A DNA stretch of 64,000 nt, taken from Saccharomycopsis phalli (Eukaryota; Ascomycota; Saccharomycetes; Ascoideales; Saccharomycopsidaceae). The DNA lies in the NCBI GenBank assembly GCA_020342235.1, contig CP073213.1:164501-228500 (forward strand), given 5' to 3'. Shown one piece after another: positions 37,975 through 63,090 of the stretch; position 1 is the first letter of the stretch, and each line of letters begins with the position of its first letter. The notes under the pieces were generated by a model that saw nothing but the letters and a program-made list of their open reading frames with translations, was not told the DNA's origin and ran no database searches. Position numbers and translations under genes: made by a program.

Positions 37975-38475
37975 ATGAACCCTGTGCTTTTCGTTCTTTT
38001 GATTGGAAGCGTGTTTGCTGACCATTCTTTTTCAGTATCATCTTACTTGACAACCTATTCGATAGATGGACTTCTTGTGACCGTGTCGGCACCAACTTCT
38101 ATTACTGCTATTTCCCAGGACCATACTTACACTGAATATATTGGGGTGGATAGAAGTATTTCAGAGCCAGAATTGCCCTCTGTGGTGAGTGTCATTACCT
38201 CTGGAGACTCTGTGACTACTATCATGCCGTCGAACATTCATGCAAACGTGAGTTTGGCCACGGTTACTCTAGGGCAGGGAAATACTAGTCATATTGTTAC
38301 AGCTACCATTGATCCTGCACTGAAATTAACCGGTTCTTCTGCGAGCGCGTCTTCTTCATCCGGTTCAGCTTCTTCAAAAGGTGCTGGCGCCGTTGCTCAT
38401 GGTGTGTTGGACAATAGCTATTACTACTTGGCTTTAGTTTCCGGAGGTCTTGTTGGTATCTTGGCCTTGCTTTAA
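37975..38475 (+). CDS. Small GPI-type cell-surface protein, module A
   Basis: 166 residues, family not recognised. The N-terminal signal peptide is MNPVLFVLLIGSVFADHS. A beta-type, Ser/Thr-rich ectodomain with few N-glycosylation sites (NVS, NTS) follows, then a low-complexity serine stretch and a hydrophobic C-terminus LALVSGGLVGILALL typical of a GPI-anchor signal. It should end up on the plasma membrane or cell wall. A TATA-like TATATAAAAAG lies about 45 bp upstream. It converges on the aspartyl protease gene next to it. Paralogues lie at 49542-50042 and, broken, at 55007-55507. Leader and tail are nearly identical among copies, while the centre (residues about 25-65) differs most. Confidence 0.85.
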   Translation: MNPVLFVLLIGSVFADHSFSVSSYLTTYSIDGLLVTVSAPTSITAISQDHTYTEYIGVDRSISEPELPSVVSVITSGDSVTTIMPSNIHANVSLATVTLGQGNTSHIVTATIDPALKLTGSSASASSSSGSASSKGAGAVAHGVLDNSYYYLALVSGGLVGILALL

Positions 38476-38746
38476 TTATAGATTTTTCTCGAGTTAATGA
38501 CTATGTTTCATGATTGATTTTGTATTGTGTACAGTAGATCTATAGAATGAACATCGAGTGAAGCTTGCAATTTGACTGCTGGCAGGTTTGTTCAGTTTAT
38601 TTGTTAGCATTATAAGAACTAATTTATAATATCAGCCTCGTATCAAATTAGAGTTAAATTCTAAGATTTATTATATCTTTACTAATTGATAAAAGCAATA
38701 CTATACCTGATATCTACAAAGGTTATAATCAATAATAAAACATGAC

Positions 38747-40144
38747 TTATGAAATCAAAGCCATAGCTGTCATAATAGAAACAATTAAATACATTGGCCA
38801 ACTCACGTTTAAACAAACTCCAGAATTTTTTTTACCGTTACCAGATGGCGTGGCAGGCGAAGATGAAGAAGTAGAACTGCTATTGTTTGTGGAATCAGCA
38901 AACCCAAAATTCGACCCTGCAGAGTTTGCCTTTGGTTTACCAACAGTAAAAGACGCATTCCCAAGATCAAAGTAAGAGTAGGCATTGTCAAAAAAAGGCA
39001 CTCCAAATATGGCATTCACAGATCTTGAAGTTCCATAATTAAAAGGGTATCTGCAATACTGTTCTCCATCAATGGTTTGATTTCGGAGCACATATGGCCA
39101 CATTGGCACATCAATAGTCACCGAGCTATTAGGATCAAAACTAAAAGAAATCAGCGCCTTGGCTATTTCCTCACACTTCATAAAGAAAGCACCGCTACTC
39201 CAAACGTAGTTTGAAAATTGCGAGAATATCACACTAGAAACATTCTGTGAAAAACCCATAACGGAGCTACCAGTATCAATATAGTATACATCAGGGGCAA
39301 CTGCCACAGAATGATCACCATTATTAATAGTGGCATCCGCATAAACATAATATCCATTATAGACACCATCGAGAATGAAAGGAACTGTGACCGTGTCTCC
39401 ATCAATCTGTGACATGTCTGGCCGTGCACCACCAAACGCAATTGATCCATGTTTACTAGTAGAATTGAAGTTTACAGCAAATGCAAAATTGTCAATAATA
39501 CCAGACGTCCATAACTTCCGAGGTAGGTTATCGTACTGAACCAGAAGCTCACTTGCTCTCGTGGCAGAAACCTCCAATGTCCGAGGTCCAAGACCGAGAT
39601 TGTTTGGTATATTACCTTCATGAACTGCCGCAAAAACCGCACCTTTAACTTCAGTGCCAAACACGTTGATCGTATCATTCACATATTCTCCATAGGAATA
39701 TGTATCACCGGTGGCAAATAGACCAAAAAATTCCATTCCAGTTTTAATCAATGACTTAGAACTCGAAGGGTCAAACAATAGATCACAAGTAACAAATGTC
39801 GAATCTTCTGTCGAGTTCCCTTTATTGAGAAATGTGAGATTTCCCACATTTCCATAAGTATAATTGTAAAACGTATCAATCAATATATTATCTCTTTTCC
39901 GAATGCTGGAAGTGTTGGAACAAAATGGACTGGGCGAAGACCAAACATTCAAATCAGATGCGCCAGTGTCAATTCTAGCCCTGGTAGTGAAGTTTTCGCT
40001 TCCAAGTCCTAGTTCCACAAACCAATAGTCACCATAAAGTTCAACAGGAACTTCAAGGACACCATTCTTGGCATTTTCTCTCTTGATGATGGAACCAAAA
40101 ACCAACAAAGGCGCCAAAATAAAATTAAGCAAGTATACTTTCAT
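38747..40144 (-). CDS. Yapsin-like GPI aspartyl protease, module A
   Basis: 465 residues. A signal peptide (about 1-17) is followed by a Kex2-type KR site (21-22), so the propeptide is very short or absent. The first catalytic motif is IDTGAS (Asp 59) and the second IDTGSS (near residue 291). The expected glycine-rich strand (SIAFGGARPDMSQIDGDTV) and VPFFDNAYSYFDL late motif are present. A Ser/Thr linker leads to the hydrophobic C-terminus SWPMYLIVSIMTAMALIS, a GPI-anchor signal. Such yapsins cleave at basic residues on the cell surface and remodel wall proteins. It is shorter than yapsins with a long acidic loop and may be closer to the Bar1/secreted-protease group. Paralogues lie at 50619-52022 and 61687-63090. 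Confidence 0.92.
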   Translation of the reverse strand: MKVYLLNFILAPLLVFGSIIKRENAKNGVLEVPVELYGDYWFVELGLGSENFTTRARIDTGASDLNVWSSPSPFCSNTSSIRKRDNILIDTFYNYTYGNVGNLTFLNKGNSTEDSTFVTCDLLFDPSSSKSLIKTGMEFFGLFATGDTYSYGEYVNDTINVFGTEVKGAVFAAVHEGNIPNNLGLGPRTLEVSATRASELLVQYDNLPRKLWTSGIIDNFAFAVNFNSTSKHGSIAFGGARPDMSQIDGDTVTVPFILDGVYNGYYVYADATINNGDHSVAVAPDVYYIDTGSSVMGFSQNVSSVIFSQFSNYVWSSGAFFMKCEEIAKALISFSFDPNSSVTIDVPMWPYVLRNQTIDGEQYCRYPFNYGTSRSVNAIFGVPFFDNAYSYFDLGNASFTVGKPKANSAGSNFGFADSTNNSSSTSSSSPATPSGNGKKNSGVCLNVSWPMYLIVSIMTAMALIS

Positions 40145-41433
40145 ATTGCCGGTAGTGTCGGAAATATTACTGAATTGTTTTGTTTTAAATCTAGCGTGTT
40201 TAACAAGATGGCTGCCGACCTATATTTATACTTGAAATGTTTAGGGGTAGTATGCTGCTATCTGTACGATCACGCACCACTCCAAGACAATTTCGACTAT
40301 TGGTATATGAGTAATTTAAATAGATGCTTTTTATTCCAATAATCATACCTTATTTGGTTGAATTTTTATATTTTGGTCAATTCTCGTATTAAAATGTCCT
40401 ATTGTACGTTGAAAAAGCGACACGGTATTTTGATTCATCTGTGTGAGACATCAATATTCACATTTGGTTTTTCAGTACCTATCGAGTCACACATGCAGGC
40501 TATCCGTATTCTGTTTGATACCTAAATAAGTTGGACGCCTGCCTTAACGCAAAGTAATGCGTCATTATACTTTGACTTATCATATGTGTATTTATAGATT
40601 ATCAGGTCCCATTTAGTTTTGAATACTACACTTCTGAGTAATTTTTGAATGCAGAAAGCTAGATACGATACGTGGCTCGCTTATATTTGGAAACCGTTTA
40701 ATGAGTCCGACTGGACTAGATAAATCGAGTATATAATTGATTTCGGCAGAATAAATAACAGCTAGATAATTAAAGAGAAAAAGAACAGTCTGAGGTCATC
40801 ATTGCACAGATTCATAGTACCCCGCATATTGACTAATCAAAAGTTGCACCAAGTAATCCATACTATCACCATAATCTAGTATTTGAAATCTTCTGATTGA
40901 AATATCTTATGTCTCTTATTTGAAGTCCCGGTATCTTCGAAACCATGACAAGACTAACTAGTCACAATTTGGAAAAACCATTGATAACTAGTACTTATAA
41001 TTGTCTACAAGATTGTCTGACATGTTGATAAAAGCCCTTATTATACCACTATTCCAGCTACTCGAATTCCTGTGGGACAAGAGCCCATGGTCAAGGTACT
41101 TCCAACAACTGCTCAAATTGAAGTTTTTAATTCCCAGCAGGCGCATGAAGGCTGGCAAAGGGTTTTCTTCAACAGCAATGCAGCTGGAGGTTGCTGAATA
41201 AAAATATTCATGTTAGACAACCATATTTTTGGAGACAATATATAGCAAAAATAAATATTATCATTATAAGGTGTAGCAAGCAGACATGGCTTTTATTTTG
41301 AAACTGGTTGTTTCGTGTGGGCTGCCGTTTTGTGTGTATACTGGGGTAACCAGATTTACAGATTAGATAACGTATTCATATTTCGTGCGATTTACTATTC
41401 ATGATCATTTCATTTTGATGCCAATGTGATCCA
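40145..41433. other. Duplicated protease promoter region, then gene-free
   Basis: 40145-40700 is similar over most of its length to the upstream regions of the other two protease copies (52023-52600; 61100-61686 inverted), including the word GTAATTTTTGAATNCAGAAA. A short piece at 40985-41035 recurs inverted at 49163-49215 (ATCAACATGTCAGACAA-type). No gene is seen to 41433. Confidence 0.6.
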
Positions 41434-42528
41434 CTACTTGTTGCCATATGCCCTGGTAGCATACTTCCCATTGGCAACAATGATATCTTGCGGACGATAA
41501 TCATACTTCTCGCTAAAGTAGCTCTGCAAGATATTCTTCACACCAAGAGCATAGCGCTCCTGGGCATCAATCGACGTCCCGCTCATGTGAGGTGTCATGG
41601 CATTGCCTCCACCACGAGAATTGGTCATGGTGCGCCATGGGTGATTCTCTGGCGCCGGTTGCGGGAACCACACGTCTCCACCATATCCCCGGATCTTTCC
41701 CTCGGCCAACGCCTCGACCACCGCGTCGGTCTGTACAATGGCCCCACGAGCAGTGTTGATGAGCCAGGCACCCGGCTTCACCTTGCTGAACAACTGCCGG
41801 TCAAACAAGCCGCGGGTCCCCTCGTGCAACGGACAGTTGATGGTGATGATATCTGACTGGGCCACGAGATCGTCCAAGCTTTCGACTCGCCGCGCGCCAA
41901 CTTTGTCCTCGAGCTCCTTTGATAATGGCTGGTAGTCGTAGTACAACAACTGCTTTGGGTTGAACGCAACAAGCCGCTCAAGGACTCGATATCCAATGCG
42001 CCCGGCGCCGACAGTGGCAATTGTCTTGCCCTCGATGTCATACGAGTCACGGGCAACGGCAGCAACATCCCACTTTCCCAGGGCGACCTGCTCATGCGCC
42101 GGGACAAAGTTGCGCACCAAGTTCAACATCGTCATGATGACGTGCTCGGCGACAGACACTACGTTTGAGCCAGTAACCTCGAGCACCGAGATCTTCTTCT
42201 CGTTGGCAGCGTCCAAATCAACGTGGTCCGACCCGACCCCAGCCGTGACACAGAGCTTCAACTTCTTGGCCTTGTCAAGCCGCTCCTTAGTAAGATATCC
42301 TGGGTGGAATGGCGTGGTGATGACCACGTCTGCGTCGACAATCTGGCGGTCCAACTCCGAGTCAGGTCCCTCCTTGTCGCTGGTGGTCACCAAAGTGTGG
42401 CCCTCGTCCGCGAGCCATTTTGCAAGCCCTAGCTTGTTTTCAATGGTGCCAAGCAATTTCTTTTCCTCTGCTGCGTGCTTTCCGCCCTTGTAGAGCACAA
42501 GCAAGATTTTCTGAGCGGTTTTTGTCAT
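41434..42528 (-). CDS. FDH1: NAD-dependent formate dehydrogenase
   Basis: 364 residues from the ATG at 42528, the same length as yeast formate dehydrogenases; an in-frame ATG 19 codons upstream would add an unconserved extension. It oxidises formate to CO2 with NAD+ in the cytosol. The substrate segment [24 protein letters not shown], the NAD fold [22 protein letters not shown] with the catalytic arginine region, and the late MTPHMSGTS with catalytic His are all present, as is QPAPENHPW. In methylotrophic yeasts it handles formate from methanol; in others it detoxifies formate from one-carbon metabolism. Its neighbours do not show which applies here. Confidence 0.95.
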
Positions 42529-42694
42529 GTCTAGGGAGTGATTGAGCAAGGGTGGGTTTATATACAAATGCAAGCGGGGAAGCAACGATCTGCATGGAGC
42601 AAAGGAGTGAAGCGGTAAGACAATAGGGATGAAGGAAGGATGGAAGGAGACATGGGGAAGGTGGGGTGATTTATGGGGAGACTAGGATATTGAA

Positions 42695-42848
42695 TGGGAG
42701 CAAGAAAACTGAGTCAATGTTAGTACAACAATATTGAGTCAATGTTATTAAACAATTTCGAATCAATGTTACTAAACAATATCGAATCAATGTTACTAAA
42801 CAATATCGAATCAATGTTACTAAACAATTTCGAATCAATGCAATATTG
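42695..42848. repeat. 24-bp tandem repeat upstream of FDH1
   Basis: Five to six units of AATCAATGTTACTAAACAAT plus WTCG, with units at 42761, 42785, 42809 and 42833 exactly 24 bp apart. It lies in the likely promoter region of FDH1. Confidence 0.88.
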
Positions 42849-43420
42849 CAGTCATCTGAAATCTCCGTGCACCAATGGAAAATTAAATTGCCAAGTAATT
42901 ATGCACCTATGACACATGGAAATATATTCGTGGGCTAGAGCAATTCTTCAATAATTTTAAAGCTACAGAACATCATTCATATTGGCACAATTCTGAATTT
43001 GGTAAATACCTTGTCCAAGTAGTACACCAGCCAGGGTCCACCAAAAAGTCCAGACCACCACCTAGCTGCATGTCATGTGTCATGTCAATGGGTGATTACT
43101 TGGTTGGCTGGTATGTGCTTATTTATTCCAATGTAATTGTTAACTCGTTCCTCAATTCAAACCTTGTCTGATTGCATTTTCAATTTTTTCTCATTAATAT
43201 ATTTCATTTCATTCACCTCCATTTCAAATCTCATTTTGGAAACCATCCAATGCCCATTGTAATTCAATCCTCTACACGACGCTTGCCTCTCAGCAAAACA
43301 CAAAATCTTGCAACATCCATGGTCACTACTCTCTCTAATATTGATATATTATAGCTAGCTCGTGACTATATATGCCCCGGTCTCACGCCCCGAGACTCAC
43401 ACAAAAACACCACTTCCCCA

Positions 43421-45124: not shown

Positions 45125-45446
45125 GTTCTCCTGTAGTTGAAGTAAAAAAACTTTGGCAAATTCTGCGATGGTGCGCGGGCTACAAACCAGTCACAAGACA
45201 TTGACTTGCCCATGGGACAGAATCGGTGGGAAAGAATGCAAAAAAGAAAAGGTGCAATACAGCACATGATTAAATACAGAGATGTAGATAGATAGCTGAT
45301 GGTTATTAAACAATATTAGAGGCGTAGTGGCAATGTGTGATTGTCCATGGTAATTTGTCCTGTAGTATAGTGCATGGATCATGTAATGGCATGTCTGCAA
45401 ATCTAGAACTTGATGAAAAACTTTACACAGGGCTTGTAAAAATAGT

Positions 45447-45522: not shown

Positions 45523-45597
45523 ACTATGCATAATGACGCATATCACATGAGATATTTCACTTGCAAAGATGAGTAATTTTACATCACCTTTGGTACC

Positions 45598-48150: not shown

Positions 48151-48724
48151 AACGATTATTTAAGAAGTTAATAGATATATCATAATTAATCATGGCTAAC
48201 CGTTCCGGTAAATCCAAACTTCAATAAGTTTTTAGAGGTTGTTTTCGTACGAGGGTTGGAGTTTATGTGAGAGACATAGCACCATGGATCCAACTACTTC
48301 TTGCCTATACAACTGGTTTGAAATATGTCAAAAGAATAGTAATACTAAATTCATGAAACTACTACTTGGGGGCCTGGGGATACCACAAATGATAGGCTTG
48401 ATGGTCAGAGTTTGATGTAGCTGTGTCATGCCTAAGTTGCATACATTGTGGCTTGGTAACTTCGCACACGAAACAAAAAGGTTGGAAAGACAATTGGAAA
48501 CTGGCTTGGTAATTAATTTACCAGAACCATTTTATCCTTACTATTACTGAAAAATTTTACCCCTCTTATATCATACATGCGTATTTGTTGGTAATTTACC
48601 ACCAAGAAATCATGGTAGCCCAATAAGTTACCAGGAACCTTCAGGACCTTGAAAAGAATAGTATTCAATTTTTTTAGTATAAAAGACATGCCATTTTTAT
48701 AAATCAACATTAAATAATTCAATA

Positions 48725-49032
48725 ACGCAATTTCAAACTCTCCTTACCATCTTTTCTATTGCTTTAGCAGTTACTGCCACACCAATGGTGAGACTACTAC
48801 TTTGGTTTATTCATTTTTTAACCAATCTGCTACTAATGTCTCTGATGCTATTGATGTGCATGTTGCTCCTGTCGACTCTCAAAACCCTGACAAGGTCCAA
48901 GAAAAAAAATAGAGTAGTAGAATCAAGAATGCCAGTACTGTTGTTGGAATTGCTGGGGAACTTACTGGCATAGCTGCTAATGGTATTAAAATAGCCAACA
49001 CGGATAATGAAAAGAGTAACCAGGCTTCATAA
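48725..49032 (+). pseudogene. Broken small secreted-protein gene, module B
   Basis: It begins with an ACG where the paralogue at 59892 has ATG. The next codons (QFQTLLTIFSIALAVTAT) form a signal peptide nearly identical to that copy. Downstream, in other frames, are pieces such as NQSATNVSDAIDVHVAPVDS and KNASTVVGIAGELTGIAANG ending at a TAA (49032). The frame is interrupted, so this copy is not functional. The family is not recognised. A third fragment is at 55790-55960, also upstream of a GPI-protein copy. Confidence 0.6.
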
Positions 49033-49541
49033 TTAATGCTACTGGCTGACATGGATATACATATAGATTTATAGTATAATTGTAAGCAGTTGTTAGATCC
49101 ACTCTGACCATGGACTACTGCATCACAGGAATATGAGTAGCTGGAATTGTGATATACTTAGAGGGTTTGTCAACATGTCAGACAACTGTATAGACAATTC
49201 TAAGCAGTCGCCATAATAGGCAAGAGCAGCCAGGCGCCCCACACGTTAATATCAAATACCACACATCAACAACAATTAATAAATAAATCGAGGGATTTTC
49301 TAATAATTATTATACTGTCATCGGAAGTTGTATATAACTAAAAGAGAAGCACAAACTGAGACCTGTGATGGATTAGGTACCTGATCTGTGCGTCGTTGGA
49401 CAAATTGGGAAAGCACTACTTTATCAGACGGTAACACATACATGCAAATATATGCACATGCATCCTTACAAGAATTCACTTACAGATGCATATTTAAAAA
49501 GCCCAGCCTTTGCTCTTTTTTTAACCTGCACAACAGTTATA

Positions 49542-50042
49542 ATGAACCCTGTGATTTTCATTCTTTTGATTGGAAGCGTGTTTGCTGACCATTCTTTTTC
49601 AGTATCATCTTACTTGACCACTTATACGAAAATAGGGCTTGATTTGACTGTGTCGGCACCAATTACTACCGTTGCTACTTCCTACGGCCTTACTCAAACC
49701 CTATATATTGGGTTGAATGAAGAATCAGAAGAGCCAATAATGCCTTCTTTGGTGAGTGTAATTACCTCTGGAGGCTCTGTGACTACTATCATGCCGTCGA
49801 ACATTCACGGAAACGTGAGTTTGGCTACGGTTACTTTCGGACAGGGAAATACTAGTCATATTGTTACAGCTACCATTGATATTGCACTGAAATTAAACGG
49901 TTCTTCCGCGAGCGTGTCTTCTTCGTCCGGTTCAGCCTCTTCAAAAGGTGCTGGTGCCGTTGCTCATGGGGTGTTGGACAATAGCTATTACTACATGGCT
50001 TTAGTTTCCGGAGGCCTTGTCGGTATCTTTGCCTTGCTTTAA
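49542..50042 (+). CDS. Small GPI-type cell-surface protein, module B
   Basis: 166 residues, the same length as the module A copy. The signal peptide is MNPVIFILLIGSVFADHS, and the C-terminal GPI-type segment MALVSGGLVGIFALL follows a serine-rich stretch. The central part differs from module A (for example TKIGLDLTVSAPITTVATSY against SIDGLLVTVSAPTSITAISQ), while the segment VSVITSGGSVTTIMPSNIHG and all after it are close to identical. It converges on the module B protease. The function is unknown; the pattern of stable ends and a changing centre is that of a cell-surface protein under diversifying change. Confidence 0.85.
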   Translation: MNPVIFILLIGSVFADHSFSVSSYLTTYTKIGLDLTVSAPITTVATSYGLTQTLYIGLNEESEEPIMPSLVSVITSGGSVTTIMPSNIHGNVSLATVTFGQGNTSHIVTATIDIALKLNGSSASVSSSSGSASSKGAGAVAHGVLDNSYYYMALVSGGLVGIFALL

Positions 50043-50312
50043 TTATAGAATTTTATTCAGTTTATGTCTGTTTTTTATGCTTAACTGTGAATTGTGTATA
50101 GTAGATCTAGAATAAATATCAGGTGAAGTTTTTAATTTGATTGCTGGCAGGATTGTTCAGTTTAATTGTTAGCATTACGAGAACTAATTAATAATGCGAG
50201 CCTGGTGTCAAATTAGACTTAAATTCCAAGTCTTATTATTTCTTTACTAATTAATTAAAACAATACTACACCGGATTTCTACAAAGGTTATAATCAATAA
50301 TAAAACATGACT

Positions 50313-50611
50313 GTCAAAGTTTATATAAGTAGGGGTAAATTAATGACTATGAAGCACTAATATAAACTCTATATATTTTGTTGTTCCTTTAAGATTGAAT
50401 GATTGAATCTAAACCAAAGGTCCTTAAAACGATAGATGTCCTAGGTAGTTTTCTACCTAGCCTTTTATAGTCGCTCCAATGATCCGCGTATGCCGTACGG
50501 AGAGAATATACTCGCCGTACGGCCATAGCAGGTCACTCGTGTTTGATCTACCAGAGTGTACTAATTACATACTACTTTGTGACCAGCTAGTGATCAACTG
50601 GTGATCACGAC
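50313..50611. mobile_element. 299-bp insertion with 8-bp target duplication
   Basis: The sequence ACATGACT occurs on both sides (50305-50312 and 50612-50619). In module A (38740-38747) and in the inverted copy (63090-63097) the same region is uninterrupted with a single ACATGACT, so the empty site is visible twice. An 8-bp duplication is the size made by hAT-type DNA transposons. The ends GTCAAAG and CACGAC are not good inverted repeats, so the family is uncertain. Inside are the palindromes AGGTAGTTTTCTACCT and a pair of CCGTACGG words. It carries no coding capacity. Confidence 0.8.
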
Positions 50612-50618
50612 ACATGAC

Positions 50619-52022
50619 TTATGAAATCAAAGCCATGGCTGTCATAATAGAAACAATGAAATACATTGGCCAATTGACGTTCAAACAAAGTCCAGCATTT
50701 TTTTTCCCGCTGGCAGATGGTGTGGCAGACGAAGATGAAGAAGTAGAACTGCTACTGTTGGTGGAATCAGCAAACCCAAAGTTCGACCCTGCAGAGTTTG
50801 CCTTTGGTTTACCAACAGTGAAAGACGCATTCCCAAGATCAAAGTAAGAGTAGGCATTGTCAAAAAAGGGTACTCCAAACATGGCATTCATAGATCTTGA
50901 AGTTCCATAATAAAAGGGATAAGCACAATACTGTTCTCCATCGATGGTTTGATTTTGGGTCACGTATGGCCATATTGGCACATCAATCGTCACTGAGCTA
51001 TTAGGATCAAAACTAAAAGAAATCAGTGCCTTGGATATTTCCTCACACTTAATAAAGAATGCACCTTTATTCCAAACATAGTTTGAAAATTGCGAAAATA
51101 TCAAACTAGTAACATTCTGTGAGAAACGCATAAAGGGACTACCAGTATCAACATAGTACAGTTCAGGAGCAACCGCCACAGAATGATCACCATTATTAAT
51201 AGTGGCATATGCGGAAACATAATATCCAATATAATTGCCTCCAGACATGAAAGGAACTGTGACTGTATCTCCATCAATCTGTGACATGTCTGGCCGTGCA
51301 CCACCAAACGCAATTGATCCACGTTTACTAGTAGTGTTAAGGTTTACAGCAAATGCAAAATTATCAACAATACCAGAAGTCCATAATTTTCGAGGTAGGT
51401 TATCGTACTGAACCCGAAACTCAGCTGCTCTTAGAGCAGATGTCTCCAACGTCCGAGGTCCAAGACCGAGATTGTTCGCTGCACTACCCTCGTGAATTGT
51501 CGCAAAAACCGCACCTTTAACTTCAGTGCCAAGCAAGTTGATCGTATCATTCACATACTCTCCATAGGCGAATGTATCTGCATTACCAAATACTACAAAA
51601 CATTCCATTCCAGTTTTAATTAATGACTTGGAACTTGAAGGGTCAAACAATTGGTCACAATTAACAAATTTCGAATCGTCTGTCGTGATCCCTTGACTGA
51701 TGAATGTAAGATTTCCCACATTTCCGTAATTATATTTGTAAAACAAATCAATCAATTTATCATTTCTTTTCCGAATGACGGAAGTGTTGGAGCAAAATGG
51801 AGTGGGTGAAGACCAAATGGTCAAATCAGATGCGCCAGTGTCAATTCTAGCTCTGGTGGTGAAGTTTTCGCTTCCAAGTCCTATTTCTATTGTCCACAAA
51901 TTACCGCCAAATAAATATTCAGCTGGAACTTCAAGGACACCATTCTTGGCATTTTCTCGCTTGATGATGGTGCCAAAAACCAACAAAGGCGCCAAAATAA
52001 AATTAAGCAAGTATAATTTCAT
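50619..52022 (-). CDS. Yapsin-like GPI aspartyl protease, module B
   Basis: 467 residues, closely similar to modules A and C. The signal peptide, KR site (21-22) and first motif IDTGAS (Asp 61) are conserved. The second motif reads VDTGSPFMRF, still with the catalytic DTG. A Ser/Thr linker precedes a GPI-type C-terminus. A 299-bp insertion sits directly after the stop codon; the duplicated target even includes the last base of the TAA, so the coding frame is intact but the native 3' end of the transcript is displaced. Confidence 0.92.
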   Translation of the reverse strand: MKLYLLNFILAPLLVFGTIIKRENAKNGVLEVPAEYLFGGNLWTIEIGLGSENFTTRARIDTGASDLTIWSSPTPFCSNTSVIRKRNDKLIDLFYKYNYGNVGNLTFISQGITTDDSKFVNCDQLFDPSSSKSLIKTGMECFVVFGNADTFAYGEYVNDTINLLGTEVKGAVFATIHEGSAANNLGLGPRTLETSALRAAEFRVQYDNLPRKLWTSGIVDNFAFAVNLNTTSKRGSIAFGGARPDMSQIDGDTVTVPFMSGGNYIGYYVSAYATINNGDHSVAVAPELYYVDTGSPFMRFSQNVTSLIFSQFSNYVWNKGAFFIKCEEISKALISFSFDPNSSVTIDVPIWPYVTQNQTIDGEQYCAYPFYYGTSRSMNAMFGVPFFDNAYSYFDLGNASFTVGKPKANSAGSNFGFADSTNSSSSTSSSSSATPSASGKKNAGLCLNVNWPMYFIVSIMTAMALIS

Positions 52023-52892: not shown

Positions 52893-54748
52893 GACAATAA
52901 TAATAATAATAATAATAATATTTATTTTTGTATTTAGCTATATATTGTCTCCGGCAATACGGTTATTCGACAGATATATTTTCACTCAGGAACATCCTGA
53001 GGCAGCATTGCTGTTGAAGAAAACCCTTTGTCAACCCTCATGCGGTTGCCTGGGATTAAAAACTTCAATGGAGGCAGTTATATTGTTGGTGCTTGGTGCT
53101 TGTATGGATTGTGTAAGAAGCCTGGTCACTCTTGTTGTCGAATGTGACCGCTGAATCTCATCATGTGTTGGAGGAATCATGTTCCAACACGTTCTGGTAG
53201 AACTCTAGGAGTTTGTGGACTGATTTTTGGTCGGCAAACACTTTGCCAAGCGTATTGCGTATGCCATGAGTGGAATCTAGTATGTCATCAATGCGTGATA
53301 GAATTCGAGCTTCTAAGAGCTCTGGACATCGTAGGTCATGTATGATGGAGGGGGAGTGAATCCCACATCGTTTACACTTTGGGTCATCATTGCCAAATAA
53401 TTTGAGCAACGATCCGTCTGTGAGGCTCTTTCCGCTGAGTAGTTGTGATGCCAAACTGAGGATTGCCTTGGGGCCTGCAAGCGCTTCCGTGAGGAGGAGC
53501 TTGGTTTTGTCTCGGTGCACTTTGAACAGACTGGTGCTGATCTTGCGCGCATTCCTATAGTGGTTTGGGAGTGATTCACTGGTTGAGGTGACCATTTCTT
53601 GCCACTCTTTGGTTGCCGCGTCTGAGGCCATTGTCTTGAGCATCTGGATGCGGGCCCGCTTTGGATTTTGTATCGGTGGCGGGTCGTCTTCGAGTCGCTT
53701 TTCCTCTAGGGCATAATCAGCGCGTTGTTCAAGTAATCGAGCGACTGCGTCAAACGTTCTGATATCTGGATTGTGGGGGGCTGTTGCCTGTAACATGTCC
53801 TGGATAAGAGGGCGCTTGGGAATTGTGATTCTCGTGTTTCCATTGATCGTGGTAGTTTGGAACAAACTTGAGCGGACTGGGTTTTGGCGTGATGTATTCA
53901 TGAACCATCTCATGGATTTCATCAGTGCCAAGAACTTAAGTAGGATCGTTGGTGGTGGAATACCACTTTCGATATAGATGATCGGGGTGGACGTGGGTCT
54001 GAGGAGGCCTAGCGCCAGCCGTAGGATTGAGTTGAATATCACACTGACCTGACCCCATTGGGTTTTTGTCATGCTGTTATAGAACACCTCGAGTCCATAC
54101 GATATGATGGGAACTGCGCACGTTTTGAACAATATTATCGTGGTTCGTCCCGTGGTTCCTCGTGTCATTCGGCTTAAGTACCTTATTTGTTCAGCAGTAC
54201 GGCGCATCTTGGACAATATTTGTTTTAGATGGCCCCTGAAGCTGAGTCTTGAATCAAGGGTAATGCCTAATAACTTGACCTCGTTTGTTTCCTCCTTTCG
54301 TCCTCCGTCCGGAAGTCGGAGGCTGGATTCACAGTTCGGTAACCGTCTTCGATTCGGGAAGAATCGTATGTATTGTAGTTTCGGGCCATAGTCAAAGCTT
54401 GTGAAATTCTCCTGACCCCAATGATGGCATTCCTGTAAGCACCGTTGAAGTGTATGCTCAATGTCGCTACGGGAGCCCGTCTTGACAATTGTAATGTCAT
54501 CAATGAATCCTAGGGCCACTGCCCCTTTCCGCTCAAGCCGGTTGTAGAGGTCGTGGGTGTAGATCATGAAGAGGATCGGAGAGATTGGAGAGCCTTGTGG
54601 GACTCCGAACGTGACGGGGAGGTTCTGGTCTGATAACTGTCCATCAATTTTTAGCTGAGTACTTCGGTTCTGGAGGAAGTTACTAGTCCAATTAATTATC
54701 TCGGGTGGAGCGCCGACAGCTTGCATCTTTTGTAGTAGTAGGTCAAGC
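52893..54748 (-). mobile_element. LINE family 1 element, 5'-truncated, with (ATT)n tail
   Basis: About 1.85 kb. The 3' end (left) has a run of about eight AAT on the plus strand, so the element ends in (ATT)n, then a short untranslated region and the ORF described separately. The 5' end at about 54748 abuts an LTR fragment. Relatives of its 3' end are at 24318-24725 and 56131-57350. The ORF is open throughout, so this is the youngest LINE copy in the window. Confidence 0.85.
53161..54726 (-). CDS. LINE reverse transcriptase, C-terminal two thirds
   Basis: 521 codons. The polymerase motifs GVPQGSPISPILF (41-53) and FIDDITI (74-80, catalytic DD) are followed by EVKLLGITLDSRLSF (RT motif 7) and a thumb region. 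Near the C-terminus is a zinc knuckle CKRC..H...C in CKRCGIHSPSIIHDLRC, as in many LINE clades. No RNase H motif is evident. The endonuclease and the N-terminal RT motifs are missing because the element is 5'-truncated, so the first methionine is not a true start. The copy cannot move on its own. Clade is not settled; Tad-like or L1-like fungal elements are the candidates. Confidence 0.85.
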   Translation of the reverse strand: MQAVGAPPEIINWTSNFLQNRSTQLKIDGQLSDQNLPVTFGVPQGSPISPILFMIYTHDLYNRLERKGAVALGFIDDITIVKTGSRSDIEHTLQRCLQECHHWGQENFTSFDYGPKLQYIRFFPNRRRLPNCESSLRLPDGGRKEETNEVKLLGITLDSRLSFRGHLKQILSKMRRTAEQIRYLSRMTRGTTGRTTIILFKTCAVPIISYGLEVFYNSMTKTQWGQVSVIFNSILRLALGLLRPTSTPIIYIESGIPPPTILLKFLALMKSMRWFMNTSRQNPVRSSLFQTTTINGNTRITIPKRPLIQDMLQATAPHNPDIRTFDAVARLLEQRADYALEEKRLEDDPPPIQNPKRARIQMLKTMASDAATKEWQEMVTSTSESLPNHYRNARKISTSLFKVHRDKTKLLLTEALAGPKAILSLASQLLSGKSLTDGSLLKLFGNDDPKCKRCGIHSPSIIHDLRCPELLEARILSRIDDILDSTHGIRNTLGKVFADQKSVHKLLEFYQNVLEHDSSNT

Positions 54749-55006: not shown

Positions 55007-55507
55007 TTAAAGCAAGGCAAAGATACCGACAAGGCCTCCAGAAACTAAAGCCATGCAGTAATAGCTATTGTCCAACACCCCATGAGCAGCGGCACCAACA
55101 CCTTTTGAAGAAGCTGAACCGGATGAAGAAGACGCGCTCGCAGAAGAACCGTTTAATTTCAGTACAAAATCAATAGTACCCGTAACAATATGACTAGTAT
55201 TTCCCTGCCCTAGACTAACCGTAGCCAAACTCACGTTTCCATGAATGTTCGACGGCATGATAGTAGTCACAGAATCTGCAGAAGTAATTACACTCGCCAC
55301 AGAAGGCAATTCTGGCTATGCAGTGCCTTTATACAACCCAATATATAGGGTGTACGTGACTCCGAAGGAAGTAGCAGTAGTAGTAATTGGTGCCATCACT
55401 GTAAAAGGAAGTTCATCTGTCGTATAGGTTGTCAAGTAAGATGATACTGAATAAGAATGGTCAGCAAACACGCTTCCAACCAAAAGAATGAAAAGCCCAG
55501 GGTTCAT
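55007..55507 (-). pseudogene. Broken small GPI-type surface protein gene
   Basis: The reading frame is the same length as the copies in modules A and B, with leader MNPGLFILLVGSVFADHS and GPI tail MALVSGGLVGIFALL. It contains one in-frame TAG (55314-55316) at the position of a GAG glutamate codon in module A (E in ISEPELPS). Apart from this stop the frame is open, so the loss is recent, or the stop is read through. Its protease partner is missing on the left, where an LTR fragment and the LINE now lie. Confidence 0.8.
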
Positions 55508-55789
55508 CATAACTGTTGTGCAGGTTAAAAAAAGAGCAAAGGCTGGGCTTTTTAAATATGCATCTGTAAGTGAATTCTTGAAAGGATGCATATGCATAAA
55601 TATGCATGTACGTGTTTCCGTCTGATAAAGTAGTGCTTTCCCAATTTGTCCAATGACGCACAGATCAGGTACGTAATTCATTACGAGTCTCAGTTTGTGT
55701 TTCTTTTTTAATTATATACAACCTCCGATGACAGTATAATAATAATTAGAAATCCCTCTATTTATTTATTTATTTTTTTTTTTTGATGT

Positions 55790-55960
55790 GTGGAATTTGA
55801 TATTTATGTATGAGACGCCCAGCTGTGCCAGTAATATCCCCAGCGATTCCAACAAACAGTACCGGCATTCTTGATTCTACCACTCCATTTTTTTTCTTGG
55901 ACATTTTCAGAGTCTTGTGAGTCGACAGGAGCAACAGGGGCGTCAATAACAACAGGACTC
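55790..55960 (-). pseudogene. Fragment of the small secreted-protein family
   Basis: On the minus strand it matches the second half of the relic at 48725-49032 (words like TGTCCAAGAAAAAAAATGG and AGAATCAAGAATGCCGGTAC). It lies upstream of the broken GPI gene, just as the relic at 48725 lies upstream of the module B GPI gene. Confidence 0.5.
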
Positions 55961-56130
55961 CGGCTCTCTTAGAAAAACCACCTCGAAAAACTACTGATTA
56001 AATCTGAAAGAATCATGATTTCACAAAGATCTAACTCATGGGAAACAATTTTACATTCTTCAATTACAGTTCTTGCCGTGATCAAATGTATTTGGTATGA
56101 CTAGACTAATACCTAACTAATCATTACGTA

Positions 56131-57350
56131 ATTAATAATAATAATATTTATTTATTTATTCAGCTATATTTTGTCTCTTGAAGCATGGTGATTTGACAAG
56201 GATATTTTCACACAAGAAAATTCTGAGGCAGCAATGCTGTTGATGAAAACCCTTTATTAGTACACATGTAGCAGCCTGGGATTAAAATCTTCAATGTGAG
56301 CTATTGTTTTGTTGAAGTACGGATGGTGCTGGATGTGAATGTGAGAAGCCTGAGTGCTTGCTCTTAAGCCATTTCCTGAAGTATCTGTGTACGTGTGAAT
56401 TGAAGTAACTGAATACGTGAGGATTGAAGCATCCATAGAGTATGAGTGTCTCCCAAGAGGTATTTATTGTTATAATGCATAACCCGCTCTCACTTCTAAT
56501 AGTTTTGTAATGGCTTTGTAAGGTGAACTGTGTATCAAGGGCAATTCCCAACAATTTAACTTGATTTGTTTCCAATTTTGTTGCGACTGTAAAAATCGTC
56601 CGTCTAGGTCATCAAATAAAATTGGTGATATTGGTGGGCAATGCGAGACTCCAAACGCTAATGGAAGCAACCAATCAGACATCCAGACTTCGATTTTAAG
56701 TCGAGTTCTACTGTTTTGTAAGAAATTATTGGCCCAGTTGATAATCTCAGGAGAGGCACCCACTTGGTGCATTTTCTTGGTATCAGGTGGCTCATATTGT
56801 TGAAGGCTCCTTCAATTGTCCATAAAGGCAACTCTAGAGTTAGTTTCCAGTCGTCTGGTAGGTTTCTCTATTGATTTTAAAGTGAGTCTCAGCATATACT
56901 TTAACTTTGTTCACTGGGATTTTGTCGCCCGTCGTGATTTTGGAGTAGAAAGCGTTGTTAAAAAAAATCTATGCTGTTCCTCATACAGTTTCATCATCTT
57001 GTTACCTTTCGTTGGGTTATAGGCTGTCCAGATAGTAGTATTGTCCAATCTAAATAGAAAACCATCCTATCATTTGAATTTTTCATATCTAACTGATGTA
57101 TTAAAAGTTTTCTATGCTATGCTCTTTGGTAGATCATCCATTAAGAGGCTTATTACGGCTCTATATGCATTTTTTACCTGGTTGGGTAAACCACCGCTTT
57201 GAAAGACTGTTTATTAATTTCATCGGGGTGTGCCTATCAATAATCTTCCCAAGGGTATACAATATTGGCGACCGCCTTATTTTACTCATACTCTGTATGG
57301 ATTATGCTCGTGAGGCGACTATTGTCTAGAGCTGTGTGCACGCTTTGCCA
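56131..57350 (-). mobile_element. LINE family 1, decayed copy
   Basis: It has a short ATT tail at 56131-56145 and the family 3' end (TTATTCAGCTATATTTTGTC, TTCTGAGGCAGCAATGCTGT). The RT piece MHQVGASPEIINWANNFLQN matches MQAVGAPPEIINWTSNFLQN of the younger LINE. Further upstream is a TIEGAFNNMS piece (RT motif A region) and a TIWTAYNPTKGN piece, parts that the younger copy lacks. Frameshifts and stops are many. Confidence 0.75.
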
Positions 57351-57499
57351 ATTTATTCTAGCATAGTTGTGTGTTTTTCGGGGTCTAATTTTTTGCTGCT
57401 CATATCAGAAGGTCAAAAGATTACTCAGAGACCAAAGTGGTCGTAGTCAAATTTCCTAAGTTTTTCCAGTGATGTCACCTGTCTTTCCAACTAGTCACT

Positions 57500-59280
57500 A
57501 ATGAAAATTACATCCAGTATGATTCCATCTCTGTGTGTTGCCTGGTAGATGTTGTTAAGATATTGGAGTTCCCAATTTCAATCATGTCATTGATCTTTGT
57601 CGTATCCCTTTTTTGATTCTAATCCAACAATAATCCGAGATGTTATGAATGGGTGGATATCATTTAGGTGTCCCATTATAATTCCGTTAGAGATGCCTTG
57701 TTTTTTTATCATGTAGTTTTTCACTAACTTTCAAAAGTGGGTATGTGAGGTGGGCTTTGAAGTCATGCAGAGCATTGTAGATGTTTATAATGTCCACTAT
57801 CTGCTTCTTTGAGTGTATTGTGATTCCAACACAATCCCTGTTCTGTAATTCATTAATATGTGAAATTTGATAGTAGCATTTATTTTCATTTTGTATCGTA
57901 TTAACATATGTTTTGGCCCAAGATCGTAGCTGTCGTTCGCTTGGTTCCGGGTCATAATCCTGCTCATCATAAGCAGCATGGTTACAAGTTTCATCTGAAT
58001 TGTACTGGCATACCCTTTACTGTACTAGTATAATCACTGCTGAATTCCTGTGGTAATCCAAGATCGCTTCAAGATATAATCCTCTCGGGAACATCGATTG
58101 ATATTATAATAATCTTTATTGGGTACTGTTATGAAGGGAATGACTGTGTGGAACAGATTTGCTACAATTTGACCGTGGAGTATAGCCTGTGGCCGAGTTC
58201 TTATCAACTATTGGGTATGTTTCAGTGGTGTTGATTGTTATGCCTCGTAGCATATGAGATACATTTGAGATAGGGACTATGACAATAGAATTTTCAGGCA
58301 CTTTGCTTTGCAAGTTTTCAGCGGATGGCTATGATTGCGGCGGATCCCGTCTTGTTTTGGTGCCATCTTGTTTTGGTGCCATCTTGTTTTGGTGCCATGG
58401 TTTGGTGAATCTCTTCCGGTTCTTATTAGGTGTTCGTGATTTCAAGCGCGTTTTTCAGATTGCATCTCTCTTTGTAGTAATCAAGTCTGTGAAATACCCT
58501 GAGAAATGAGAACTATTGTTTACTAGCAAAGCTCACTGCTTCTTCATCAGGGAAAAGGATTCGAGCTGACTATGACTTATCCGTTTCCGGTGGAAGCATG
58601 AACCAATCTGGGATATTTTCATGGTTAATGAATAGCTGTGAAATGGAACTAATAGTTTCCCTCCTCCCAATTTTTCTTTCTCAGTACCCAAGTGATCTCT
58701 ACTCCTACAATTAAACCGCCATGTCTCCAGTTCATTCTTAACTTTGAGGATTGGTGAAATAGAGTATTTTGCCTTCAACTTCTAATTCTCTTCCAGTTGG
58801 TTCTTGTGCTCGTGATTTATGTTGGATAAGAGTTCTCCCACATTTTGGATAGATAGTGAAAGTATTAAACAAGTCTCTGAAATTTATTAAGATATCTAGA
58901 AATATATTGAATCCTTCAGTAGATGAGAAATAATTTTGGGGGTTTTTTGAGTTTAGCGGAAATGAGTCCGATGACTTGTGTATGAACATGCCAAAAAGCG
59001 CTATGATGGTTTGAGCCCCGTCCTCAATTGAGTGATGAGTATTCTCCAACTGGGAGGGGGTGAGAGAGGATTCATAAGGTTGGATAATCATTCATTTCAC
59101 ATTTTAGCCATTTGATGCTGGTAGAGGTTGGTAGCTTCCATGAATTTGTGTGGCATACCCGCTTGTTTCACCTAGTGAGGGGTCATTTTCGTCTTCCTTG
59201 GTGAGGCCATAGTAGTTTTTATTTGGCTACTAGAATCATGTTGCGACGCTCTGGTGGTGTTTGGATCAGATTGATTTGAG
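57500..59280 (-). mobile_element. Probable second, older LINE relic
   Basis: The piece NDSYDLGPKHMLIRYK (57797-57994, minus) resembles NFTSFDYGPKLQYIRF, the post-catalytic region of the family-1 polymerase. It lies upstream of the copy at 56131-57350, so it belongs to another element. The frame at 58738-59091 (TPSQLENTHHSIEDGAQTII) might be from a LINE N-terminal ORF, but I do not recognise it. Three copies of TTTTGGTGCCATCTTG-like units lie at 58350-58400. Confidence 0.4.
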
Positions 59281-59891
59281 TAAATGGCATATTCTTGAGA
59301 ATTTATTTGATTTATGGTCATTTAGTGCCCGGTGTGTTGACCAGAGAGTTGACCAGAGAGTCGCACTCATTTCATATTGCTCCGATTTGGGAAGAATTCC
59401 TTTTTTTTGTTACAAATATCAGACGTATGTTTGTTACACAACGTATAGTTGTCAGAATATACCTTGCATTTTTGTCAATAAGATAATAGTATGAAACAGT
59501 ATAGTTGTGAAATTAATACACACAAGTACGTATGTACCACAAATACTGTGACACGCCGTCTTTTAAAATATCGTAGAACGTCAGAGAAATGTCTAATATG
59601 TGCACTCATCAACATTGAAACATAACTTGACACAAACCTGTGTGATTAAACAATTGAGAAATTGTATGAAAAGTATCCTAACATGAACACGCTACACTCT
59701 GAGTATACCTTAAGTGGGTATTTGTTGTCGGTAACTTATCAATAAAGAAGTTTATGAAACCGATGTCAACATAAACCATCAAGAAACTAAAACTAAAAAT
59801 GTTCAATTTTTTACTATAAAAAAGACGAAATTCTCATAAATCAAAATCAAATAAATCAAAATCAAATAAATCAGAATCAAATAAATCAGCA

Positions 59892-60035
59892 ATGCAATTC
59901 CAAACACTCTTTACCATCTTCTCCATTGCTTTAACTGCTTTGGCTGCGCCAATTAAAGTAAGTGATCATGCAGAAAGTGGGGCGTTGTTTGTTAAACCTC
60001 AATTGTTCCAAAATATAGAAGATGAAAGTTGGTAG
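59892..60035 (+). CDS. Small secreted-protein family member, possibly partial
   Basis: A 47-codon frame starting with a clear signal peptide, MQFQTLFTIFSIALTALAAP, then IKVSDHAESGALFVKPQLF. It is paralogous in its leader to the relic at 48725. Directly after PIK the DNA reads GTAAGT, a good 5' splice donor, so the frame after it may be intron and the real second exon unrecognised. No homologue known to me. A run of three AATAAATCA(G/A)-type repeats precedes the ATG. Whether it is expressed is unknown. Confidence 0.4.
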   Translation: MQFQTLFTIFSIALTALAAPIKVSDHAESGALFVKPQLFQNIEDESW

Positions 60036-60309
60036 AGTTAAAATGAGGCATTGTTTTTGGCACGGGAATATATAACTATGCATTCTGTTATTCCATTTGA
60101 ATAGGCTTAATATTTAATGCCGTTAGATGGCATATATAAACGAATAGATTTAGATTACATGTGTAAGTAGAAGATTTCAAGTAAATCATCACATTATAGG
60201 CCTCAAATAAGAGACTTGAAATAAATATTCTTAAGTAGAAGATTTCCAGTAAATAATCACATTAGAGGCCGGATATTAAAGAACTTACATTAGAGACTCC
60301 AGGAATTTT

Positions 60310-60845
60310 TTGCAATAATATTTATTTAAGGCTATAGCTATACTAGACTCCCAGAGGAGATTTATACTTCGCCGTCTATGACTAAGGACGGTGCCGCTAA
60401 TATTTGAGTCGAGAGAAAACCCTTTGAATAGAGATAAAAACATTCGACTTGATCTTGAAGGAACTGTTGAAGAGAGATCACTCAGAAGTAGCTGTGGAGT
60501 CTCGACCCCTGAGGATCTACCTACCCGGCTGCCCTTCATGCCATGCTGTGAAATAAAAAGGAATCTATCCATCCAGCACTAACGTGTAGAATCCTATAAG
60601 GAAATGAACTGATTTTGCGTCTGTGAAGAGGCGGCGAATCTGCGCTCTGGCTGTGAGGCCCTCACCGATTGTTTCCTGAGTTCGGAATACCTCTAAACAT
60701 GGGCATGATAGGTCATAAAATATTGTTGGGGAGGGATTGTCGCACCTAAGGCATTTCAGATTGTAATTAGGGTTAGCTTGTTTTTTGATAGTACTTGATA
60801 CCAAGCTTTCTTCACTTAGAGCTTAATTGCATAGTTAAGATTAAT
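60310..60845 (-). mobile_element. LINE family 2, 5'-truncated copy
   Basis: 3' end with GGCTATAGCTATACTAGACT, then the C-terminal coding part at 60565-60804 with the knuckle KCLRCDNPSPTIFYDLSC and the end TDAKSVHFLIGFYTLVLDG. This corresponds to ADQKSVHKLLEFYQNVLEHD in family 1. A short AAT tail lies at 60315. It is duplicated at 52600-52830. Confidence 0.75.
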
Positions 60846-60848
60846 ATT

Positions 60849-61108
60849 GCATGTGTAATATAATAACTAAGATACGTGTTGATAAGATAGTTAGAATATA
60901 TTCGCTTGTCCTGTTTAGGGGGGCGAGATTAGCTATATAAGTGGTGACGGAGTCAGGAAAGGAGAGACGAAGCGTACGGCATTGCTGCCTTAGTGTTGCA
61001 TCGACTGGTCAAAGGGATGTGTTTAGGGTAATTATCTAGTACTTATCACGGGAGTTCGAGTCTTGTATTAGAAAGAATTAAGGTAGGTACGGACTTTATT
61101 ACAGCATG
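60849..61108 (+). mobile_element. Solo LTR, family 1, with visible empty site
   Basis: LTR 60854-61103, 250 bp, beginning TGTAATATAATAAC and ending ACTTTATTACA. It is flanked by the 5-bp duplication GCATG (60849-60853 and 61104-61108). At 52608-52612 the duplicated segment has the same flanks with one CATGC (inverted) and no LTR, so the insertion came after the segmental duplication. No internal region remains. Confidence 0.92.
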
Positions 61109-61686
61109 TGTCTAGTTGTTGTATTGCAAAAGTGGTTTACGGATGTAAGGTGGTTCCGTACCCTGTCTAGCTTTCTGTATTCAAAAATTACCCAGAAACG
61201 TAGTATTCAAAACTAAATGAGACCTGATAAATTATAATTAGACATATGCTAAGTTAAAGTATAATGACGCATTACTTTTACGTGTAGGTAAGCATCCCAC
61301 TTATTGAAGCAGGCATCAACAGAATAGGGAATATCCTGTGCGTGTGGCTCGATAGGTACTGAAAAACCAAATGTGAATATTGATGTCTTACACATATGAA
61401 TCAGTATACCATGTTGCTTTTTGCAACGTACAACAGGATAGTTTAATATGAGACTTGACAAAAATATAAATAATTAACCAAATTAAGTATGATTATTGGA
61501 ATAAAAAGCATCTATTTACATTACCCTTATACCAATAGTCAAAATTGTCTCGGAGTGGAGCGTAGTCGTACAGATAGCAGCATACTGCCCCTAAACATTT
61601 CGAGTATAAATATAGATCGGTAGCCATCTTGTGAAACGCTAGATTTAAAACCAACCGATTCAGTAATATTTAATACCTATGGTAAT

Positions 61687-63090
61687 ATGAAAGTATGTTT
61701 GATTAATTTTATTTTGGCGCCTTTGTTGGTTTTTGGTTCCGTCATCAAGAGAGAAAATGCCAAGAATGGTGTTCTTGAAGTTCCAGCTGAATATTCACGT
61801 GAAAATAATTTGTGGACAATAGAAATAGGACTTGGAAGCGAAAACTTCACCACCAGAGCTAGAATTGACACTGGTGCATCTGATTTGACTATTTGGTCTT
61901 CACCCACTCCATTTTGCTCCAACACTTCCAGCATTCGGAAAAGAGATAATAAATTGGCTGATTTGTTTTACAAATATAATTATGGAAATGTGGGAAATCT
62001 TACATTCATCGGTCAAGAGATTACGAGAAATCAGTCGACGTATATTGCTTGTGACCAATTGTTTGACCCTTCAAGTTCCAAGTCATTAATTAAAACTGGA
62101 ATCGAATGTTTTGCAGTATTTGGTAATGCAGCTACATTCGCCTATGGAGAATATGTGAATGATACGATCAACGTGTTTGGCACTGAAGTTCAAGGTGCGC
62201 TTTTTGGGGCAATTCATGAAGGTAGTGCAACGAACAATATCGGTCTTGGACCTCGGACATTGGAGGTTTCTGCTCAAAGAGCAAGTGAGCTTCGGGTTCA
62301 GTACGATAACCTACCTCGAAAATTATGGACTTCTGGTATCATTGACAATTTTGCATTTGCTGTAAACCTCAATTCTACTAGTAAACATGGATCAATTGCG
62401 TTTGGTGGTGCAGGGCCAGACATGTCACAGATTGATGGAGACACAGTCACAGCTCCTTTTATTACTGGAGGTATTTATAATGGGTATTATGTTTCCGCAT
62501 ACGCCACTATTAATAATGGTGATCATTATGTGGCGGTTGCCCCTGAAATATACTATGTTGATACTGGTACTGGCTTTTTAGGTTTCTCACAGAATGTTTC
62601 TAGTGTGATATTTTCGCAATTTTCAAACTATGTTTGGAATAAAGGTAATTTCTATATGAAGTGTGAGGAAATAGCAAAGGCACTGGTTTCTTTTAGTTTT
62701 GATTCTAATAGCTCAGTGACGATTGATGTGCCAATGTGGCCATACGTGAACCGAAATCAAACCATCGATGGAGAACAGTATTGTGCTTATCCCTTTGGTT
62801 ATGGAACTTCATTATCTATGAATGCCGTATTAGGTGTGCCTTTTTTTGACAATGCCTACTCCTACTTTGATCTTGGGAAAGCGTCTTTGATTGTTGGTAA
62901 ACCAAAGGCAAACTCTGCAGGGTCGAACTTTGAGTTTTCTGATTCCACCAATAGCAGCAGTTCTACTTCTTCGTCTTCGTCTGCCACGCCATCTGGCAGC
63001 GGGAAAAAAAATGTTGGAGTTTGTTTGAACGTCAATTGGCCAATGTATTTCATTGTTTCTATTATGACAGCCATGGCTTTGATTTCATAA
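61687..63090 (+). CDS. Yapsin-like GPI aspartyl protease, module C
   Basis: 467 residues, inverted relative to the other two copies. The signal peptide MKVCLINFILAPLLVFGS, KR site, first motif IDTGAS and second motif VDTGTGFLGF are intact, as is the GPI-type end NWPMYFIVSIMTAMALIS. The frame is open from start to stop, so it is likely functional. Its upstream 600 bp match those of the other copies. Downstream the family's shared 3' flank runs to about 63150, where a block of repeats has been inserted. The expected GPI-protein partner is not reached before the window ends. Confidence 0.92.
   Translation: MKVCLINFILAPLLVFGSVIKRENAKNGVLEVPAEYSRENNLWTIEIGLGSENFTTRARIDTGASDLTIWSSPTPFCSNTSSIRKRDNKLADLFYKYNYGNVGNLTFIGQEITRNQSTYIACDQLFDPSSSKSLIKTGIECFAVFGNAATFAYGEYVNDTINVFGTEVQGALFGAIHEGSATNNIGLGPRTLEVSAQRASELRVQYDNLPRKLWTSGIIDNFAFAVNLNSTSKHGSIAFGGAGPDMSQIDGDTVTAPFITGGIYNGYYVSAYATINNGDHYVAVAPEIYYVDTGTGFLGFSQNVSSVIFSQFSNYVWNKGNFYMKCEEIAKALVSFSFDSNSSVTIDVPMWPYVNRNQTIDGEQYCAYPFGYGTSLSMNAVLGVPFFDNAYSYFDLGKASLIVGKPKANSAGSNFEFSDSTNSSSSTSSSSSATPSGSGKKNVGVCLNVNWPMYFIVSIMTAMALIS

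Follow-up and report, generated by a model that had tools for sequence, protein, structure and literature searches.

Within a 64,000-nucleotide stretch of Saccharomycopsis phalli contig CP073213.1 (C2:164501-228500, hereafter the window), and extending past its end, we found an array of gene pairs in which a small protein of the glycosylphosphatidylinositol (GPI) type and a yapsin-like aspartyl protease are encoded tail to tail. The whole array, C2:202475-269295, consists of seven such convergent pairs and one broken, unpaired GPI gene. It holds all eight near-full GPI-type genes (C2:202475-267605) and all seven full protease genes (C2:203250-269295) recovered when the genome (14,148,124 bases, 8 contigs) was searched with GPI protein A and protease B, respectively. 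The two genes have been paired, amplified, and maintained together within this genome. We put at roughly 40% the probability that they form a surface remodeling pair, in which the protease would act on GPI proteins, including the one encoded next to it.

An earlier note, made from the window alone, had described two tail-to-tail modules (A and B), a broken GPI copy at 55 kb (C), and an inverted protease copy at 61.7 kb (D), and had proposed that the pairing is stable. The coordinates and strands of A and B agree with this description, C is broken by a single in-frame stop codon, and the protease of D has a full open frame, its inverted pair being completed by a GPI gene just past the window (Table 1). 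Searching the genome for further modules brought the total to seven pairs, more than the window showed. A convergent GPI neighbor is present at all seven full proteases, and no locus with just one intact partner came to light. Across the 11 loci that carry either family, both genes are intact at 7, exactly one is intact at 0, and neither is intact at 4 (C, C2:305 kb, C2:320 kb, and C5:783 kb). With these margins, 1 of 330 arrangements is as extreme (calculated by hand), a figure that serves as a guide and not as a test, since the loci share ancestry. The partners lie 269 to 272 bp apart in five of the seven pairs (A, E, F, G, and H), but the gap widens to 576 bp in B and to 2158 bp in D. Foreign pieces separate the partners of the latter two (a 304-bp insert in B and about 1.9 kb in D, including a piece of a long interspersed nuclear element [LINE]), and both genes are kept in each. 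Beside the broken gene C, the protease search gave no trace of a protease, and a LINE fragment occupies its expected place.

The two families do not occur mostly apart elsewhere in the genome. Outside the array, the GPI family is represented by one relic of 53 residues on another contig (C5:783166; E value, 9.7e-5), besides a chance-level match on C7. This relic (L045, C5:783061-783345) corresponds to the N-terminal half of the GPI protein, with 45% identity over about 50 residues, and its position far from the array suggests that the GPI family predates the array. The search with protease B returned two relic pieces (C2:304957-305484 and C2:320573-320986), and three other proteases matched it far more weakly. 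No partner trace was found at an E value of <0.5 beside the two protease relics or the C5 relic, apart from a match of 24%, at chance level, that lies 7 kb from one of them.

The genome holds 45 aspartyl-protease matches, amounting by count to 40 loci, 5 of the array family and 35 others. At 15 of these 35, no GPI-like small gene faces the protease within 1.2 to 2.5 kb of 3′ flank, as judged by eye from open reading frames (ORFs) with a minimum length of 75 or 80 residues; at some loci, a partner spaced as widely as in pair D could have escaped notice. One ORF of 88 residues, lying 0.9 kb from the protease at L048, has a hydrophobic start but does not resemble a GPI protein. The genome search with GPI protein A placed no family member near any of the 35 loci. 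The 20 uninspected loci include 10 from two further aspartyl-protease arrays, at C1:1562000-1579000 and C4:648000-675000, with 5 loci each by count and proteins of about 400 residues.

The modules lie in homologous blocks of about 2.7 to 3.1 kb that include the spacer and flanks and are mostly 87 to 90% identical where uninterrupted, or 84 to 92% over shorter stretches. Segments appear to have been exchanged between copies. A 4.1-kb segment linking module pieces recurs in inverted orientation at high similarity, whereas the ends of this repeat, module pieces included, are only 80 to 95% alike. In addition, the two types of spacer that follow the GPI gene (one in A, F, and H, the other in B, D, E, and G) cut across the groups formed by the GPI genes themselves (A and E; B, D, F, and G; H). 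Coding sequence derived from LINEs accounts for 20.6% of C2:202.0-270.2 kb versus 1.9% and 1.6% of the flanking stretches, every module except A has LINE pieces no more than 2 kb away, and it is likely, we infer, that LINEs helped the duplication. The module would thus have reached seven intact copies by tandem and inverted duplication in a LINE-rich stretch, with exchange among the copies. Matches to LINE ORF2 number at least 46 in the genome and are dispersed, several of them near contig ends. Two near-complete elements, each containing ORF1 as well as an ORF2 for an endonuclease-reverse transcriptase, are located between D and E (L033, C2:231023-235308) and after E (L034, C2:239417-244330).

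Both genes are under purifying selection and have been kept coding. The seven proteases contain no internal stop codons, versus at least 15.9 expected from their base changes without selection, and the eight GPI genes contain one, versus at least 5.3. The ratio of nonsynonymous to synonymous differences (pN/pS) on disjoint pairs is 0.51 for the GPI gene and 0.63 for the protease gene (Z = -4.4 each). It rises to about 0.85 to 1.2 in variable segments (residues 31 to 70 of the GPI protein and 73 to 97 and 277 to 301 of the protease). We rejected positive selection as an explanation of these segments: pN/pS is near 1 in short windows only, synonymous change is also high in the variable segment of the GPI gene, and exchange between copies would confound any such test.

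Proteins were read with table 12, in which CTG encodes Ser. In two conserved genes, five CTG codons could be compared with solved homologs; two lie opposite Ser and none opposite Leu. Position 188 of aspartate aminotransferase faces Ser in both homologs shown, and position 112 of a mitogen-activated protein (MAP) kinase faces Ser in FUS3; the other three (aspartate aminotransferase 68; MAP kinase 52 and 299) face neither residue. With two of the five opposite Ser and none opposite Leu, CTG is read as Ser, and we infer that the host yeast belongs to the CUG-Ser clade. Reading CTG by this code instead of the standard one alters only a few residues of the module proteins.

The GPI-type protein has 166 residues and, judged by eye, consists of a signal peptide, about 100 residues free of Cys, a Ser-rich stalk, and a hydrophobic tail; Cys is absent throughout, except that copies C and F have a single one in the tail. 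We found no relative of it at an E value of ≤0.1 among 522 public candidates and no confident match to a Pfam or NCBIfam family. The earlier note had suggested looking for basic cleavage sites in this protein. No dibasic site is conserved in the mature part of the eight copies, but two single lysines in the stalk are invariant. These, K117 and K135, are the only Lys or Arg residues of the mature protein that are invariant across all eight copies, and E and F have no other Lys or Arg there. They lie within residues 116 to 136, which are 48 to 57% Ser/Thr. All eight copies thus have lone basic residues within a Ser/Thr-rich stretch ahead of the putative anchor, as do proteins shed in the Yps1 manner, such as Gas1.

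The protease scores 84 to 101 bits against the PF00026 profile (cutoff, 19.9) at five of the seven copies (A, B, D, E, and H) in a comparison that scored 44 candidates only, copies F and G not among them. hmmscan found PF00026 in one of seven copies (E value, 5.8e-29) and in none of the window copies A, B, and D, which its speed filters may explain. The best solved relative of the protease by family profile is Candidapepsin-3 (E value, 1.9e-15). No close relative was found in two protein database searches, which returned 1 and 2 matches and each limited scoring to the 7992-7993 candidates with the most words in common with the query, so that distant yeast relatives could be missed. The pair of catalytic Asp residues, in D-T/S-G motifs (DTG and D(T/S)G), and residues C75, K83, R84, and C120 of a Cys-bounded loop are present in all seven copies. 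By inspection, the C-terminal part consists of a Ser-rich stalk, an invariant KK (K438, K439), and a hydrophobic tail. The first catalytic motif is DTGA and not the yapsin DTGS, and GVPF (GIPF in E) stands near the end in place of GDxF; L027, another protease of this genome, has GVPF too.

The N terminus and the flap set the family apart. In all seven copies, the stretch preceding the first catalytic Asp contains a single dibasic site, KR at residues 21 and 22, directly after the signal peptide (its end judged by eye). That Asp lies at residue 59 to 61, versus 74 to 127 in ten other proteases, of which L007 (76) and L027 (74), from the same genome, have the shortest N-terminal parts. Taken together, these features indicate that there is practically no propeptide. 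Because the propeptide of yapsins was looked for and not found, we class the family by its sequence as yapsin-like and not as yapsin. No Tyr is present at the flap in any of the seven members, whereas all ten other sequences aligned have one; an invariant Phe143 stands opposite it in HMMER alignments and one column earlier in a MAFFT alignment, where Gly or Ala faces the Tyr. The enzyme is likely active, since Phe flaps occur in plasmepsins (Plm V, IX, and X) and the change of Tyr to Phe left pepsin activity undiminished, as far as the available part of the report goes (PMC8889585).

The array protease resembles yapsins (Yps1 of S. cerevisiae, Sap9 and Sap10 of C. albicans, and Yps1 of C. auris), as outlined in the accessible parts of two reports, in its two D-T/S-G motifs, its Cys-bounded KR loop, and its Ser-rich stalk with a basic pair and a hydrophobic tail (PMC4353680, PMC12387857). 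It differs from them in being practically without a propeptide and without the flap Tyr, in the DTGA and GVPF motifs, and in having no close sequence relative among the candidates scored. Candidapepsins (Sap1, Sap2, Sap3, Sap5, and Sapp2), which have the flap Tyr in the alignment, are its best matches among solved structures; compared with them, it has an added stalk and tail. Candidapepsins are soluble secreted enzymes. The GPI protein is built like the small Ser/Thr-rich wall proteins of yeasts of the Ccw12/Pga type, with a signal peptide, Ser-rich stalk, and hydrophobic tail, although no sequence kinship to these was detected. Yapsin clusters are tied to surface remodeling. In C. glabrata, GPI-linked aspartyl proteases are likewise amplified in a cluster, YPS3-YPS11, and the GPI adhesin Epa1 is stabilized when proteases are deleted, so that a yapsin cluster together with a GPI protein affected by yapsins is a known kind of system; the part of the report available to us describes the locus as a cluster of protease genes and does not mention an alternating GPI partner gene (PMC4052548). 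Judging from titles and the starts of abstracts, we did not find an alternating module of protease and GPI genes described in the open-access literature searched, and the module is probably restricted to this lineage.

We propose that the pair is a two-gene surface module, in which a small Ser-rich GPI wall protein would be coupled with a convergently encoded, GPI-linked, yapsin-like protease. With no classical propeptide, the protease may reach the cell surface, where it may trim or shed GPI proteins, its neighbor included, by cutting after the single stalk lysines K135 and/or K117. The number of copies of the pair and their variety in sequence could then tune the outer cell surface. In the available part of one study, Yps1 cleaves Gas1 at TGK353 and its own chain at SAVK498, and shedding occurs in Ser/Thr-rich domains (PMC4353680). 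Given such cutting after single lysines and the invariant single lysines in the Ser-rich stalk here, processing of the neighboring GPI protein is plausible, on circumstantial grounds.

Several points weigh against this proposal. The seven pairings do not amount to seven independent events because one module gave rise to all copies by segmental duplication. Constraint on the GPI protein is strongest at residues 71 to 110 and not in the stalk, and basic residues close to where a GPI anchor is attached serve other functions. Distances between GPI genes correlate only weakly with those between protease genes over the seven modules (Mantel r = 0.48, P = 0.047, one of many tests; for amino acid distances, r = 0.28, P = 0.10), giving no support to strict coevolution of the partners, a possibility we set aside. 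With the flap lacking its usual Tyr, activity of the enzyme is likely but not certain, and structure prediction of the two proteins from seven-sequence alignments gave no usable fold (mean predicted local distance difference test [pLDDT] scores of 28.8 and 30.2). Moreover, the pairs share one homologous block with spacer and flanks, so that they could have been inherited passively. The duplicated unit may merely hold two neighboring surface genes, each useful alone in the cell wall and sharing a fate only through lying within about 2.8 kb, an explanation we consider to be just as likely as a functional link. The plentiful rearrangements that built the array, with LINE relics and the 4.1-kb inverted repeat, favor such hitchhiking, as do the two best-scoring protease relatives outside the family (on C8 and at C1:1385 kb), which have no GPI-like neighbor. 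It fits less well with the lack of an intact single partner at any of the 11 loci despite exchange that breaks linkage within the array, and with pairs B and D, in which foreign inserts separate the partners and neither gene has been lost.

A stronger form of the proposal, a dedicated unit of a propeptide-less yapsin and a coencoded GPI substrate or trans regulator that diversify jointly by exchange among the seven copies, seems unlikely to us. That the GPI protein controls the protease instead of being its substrate, by helping it fold or inhibiting it in trans, is more doubtful again. The ratio of one GPI gene to each protease gene would suit such a regulator, as would the near absence of a propeptide in all seven proteases, Yps1 being made as a zymogen with a propeptide and having sites at KR30 and KR67, according to the available part of the report (PMC4353680). 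Yet the short N-terminal parts of L007 and L027 show that this feature is not unique to the array; the GPI protein has neither family similarity nor a usable model; and its variable part (residues 28 to 70) does not track any of three protease parts (r = 0.16, 0.11, and -0.06). We give the smallest chance to a fast-evolving selfish or recognition cluster, acting as poison and antidote or in self-recognition. The transposon-rich setting, the mosaic and broken copies, the variable segments with a pN/pS near 1, and the lack of close relatives among the candidates scored would agree with it, but neither product resembles an intracellular toxin, both having secretion and GPI-like signals by inspection, and no segment has a clear excess of amino acid change over the synonymous change, which is itself raised in the GPI variable segment.

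Table 1. Positions of the array pairs on contig C2 and of the features in and next to the window
Feature	Position	Strand	Remarks
Pair A	C2:202475 (GPI) / 203247 (protease)	+ / -	
Pair B	C2:214042 (GPI) / 215119 (protease)	+ / -	
GPI gene C, lone	C2:219507	-	Broken
Pair D	C2:226187 (protease) / 229749 (GPI)	+ / -	
Pair E	C2:236618 / 237388	+ / -	
Pair F	C2:255026 (protease) / 256701 (GPI)	+ / -	
Pair G	C2:259456 / 260229	+ / -	
Pair H	C2:267108 / 267880	+ / -	
Duplicated block A	window 37860..40957 = C2:202360-205457		
GPI-type gene A	window 37975..38475	+	166 aa
Yapsin-like protease gene A	window 38747..40144	-	465 aa; convergent, 271 bp from GPI A
GPI-type gene B	window 49542..50042	+	166 aa by homology; in-frame upstream ATG at 49452 gives 196 aa
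Insert in spacer of pair B	window 50312..50615		~304 bp; 95% identical to C2:229065-229367
Yapsin-like protease gene B	window 50619..52022	-	467 aa
GPI-type gene C	window 55007..55507	-	Broken by TAG at codon 64 (55316-55318)
Yapsin-like protease gene D	window 61687..63090	+	467 aa; full-length open frame
GPI partner of protease D	C2:229749-230249	-	1.2-1.7 kb past window end
Linking segment, 4.1 kb, between module pieces	window 56418..60424 = C2:220918-224924		Inverted copy at C2:262524-266608, 96.5%
LINE ORF2 fragment adjoining GPI C	window 53164..54741	-	
Old LINE remnant within 4.1-kb segment	window 56614..58073	-	
Small secreted family, decayed fragment upstream of GPI B	window 48661..49102	+	Dispersed family
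Small secreted family, decayed fragment upstream of GPI C	window 55820..55968	-	Dispersed family

The earlier note had also reported that, in two of the loci, a third family, of small secreted proteins, precedes the GPI gene. Decayed fragments of it do lie near GPI genes B and C (and near H, by DNA similarity). The family itself is dispersed over the genome, with 37 matches at an E value of ≤1, 19 of them at ≤0.001, and with mere relics near the GPI genes we rejected it as a third gene of the module. The start MQFQTLFT is common to its members at C2:302792-303196, C2:324467-324871, and window 59892-60035. The first two, which lie near the two protease relics, contain APVDSS-type repeats and are 96% identical in DNA sequence. 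Elsewhere in the window, at 34900-35165, repeats of 27 to 33 bases run within the gene of a proline-rich protein, which we take to be verprolin-like.

To our knowledge, yapsins have few known natural substrates. The pairing of a single protease gene with a single GPI gene, kept in seven copies of the module, offers a candidate enzyme-substrate pair, and a yapsin-like enzyme that is practically without a propeptide would bear on how such proteases are restrained.

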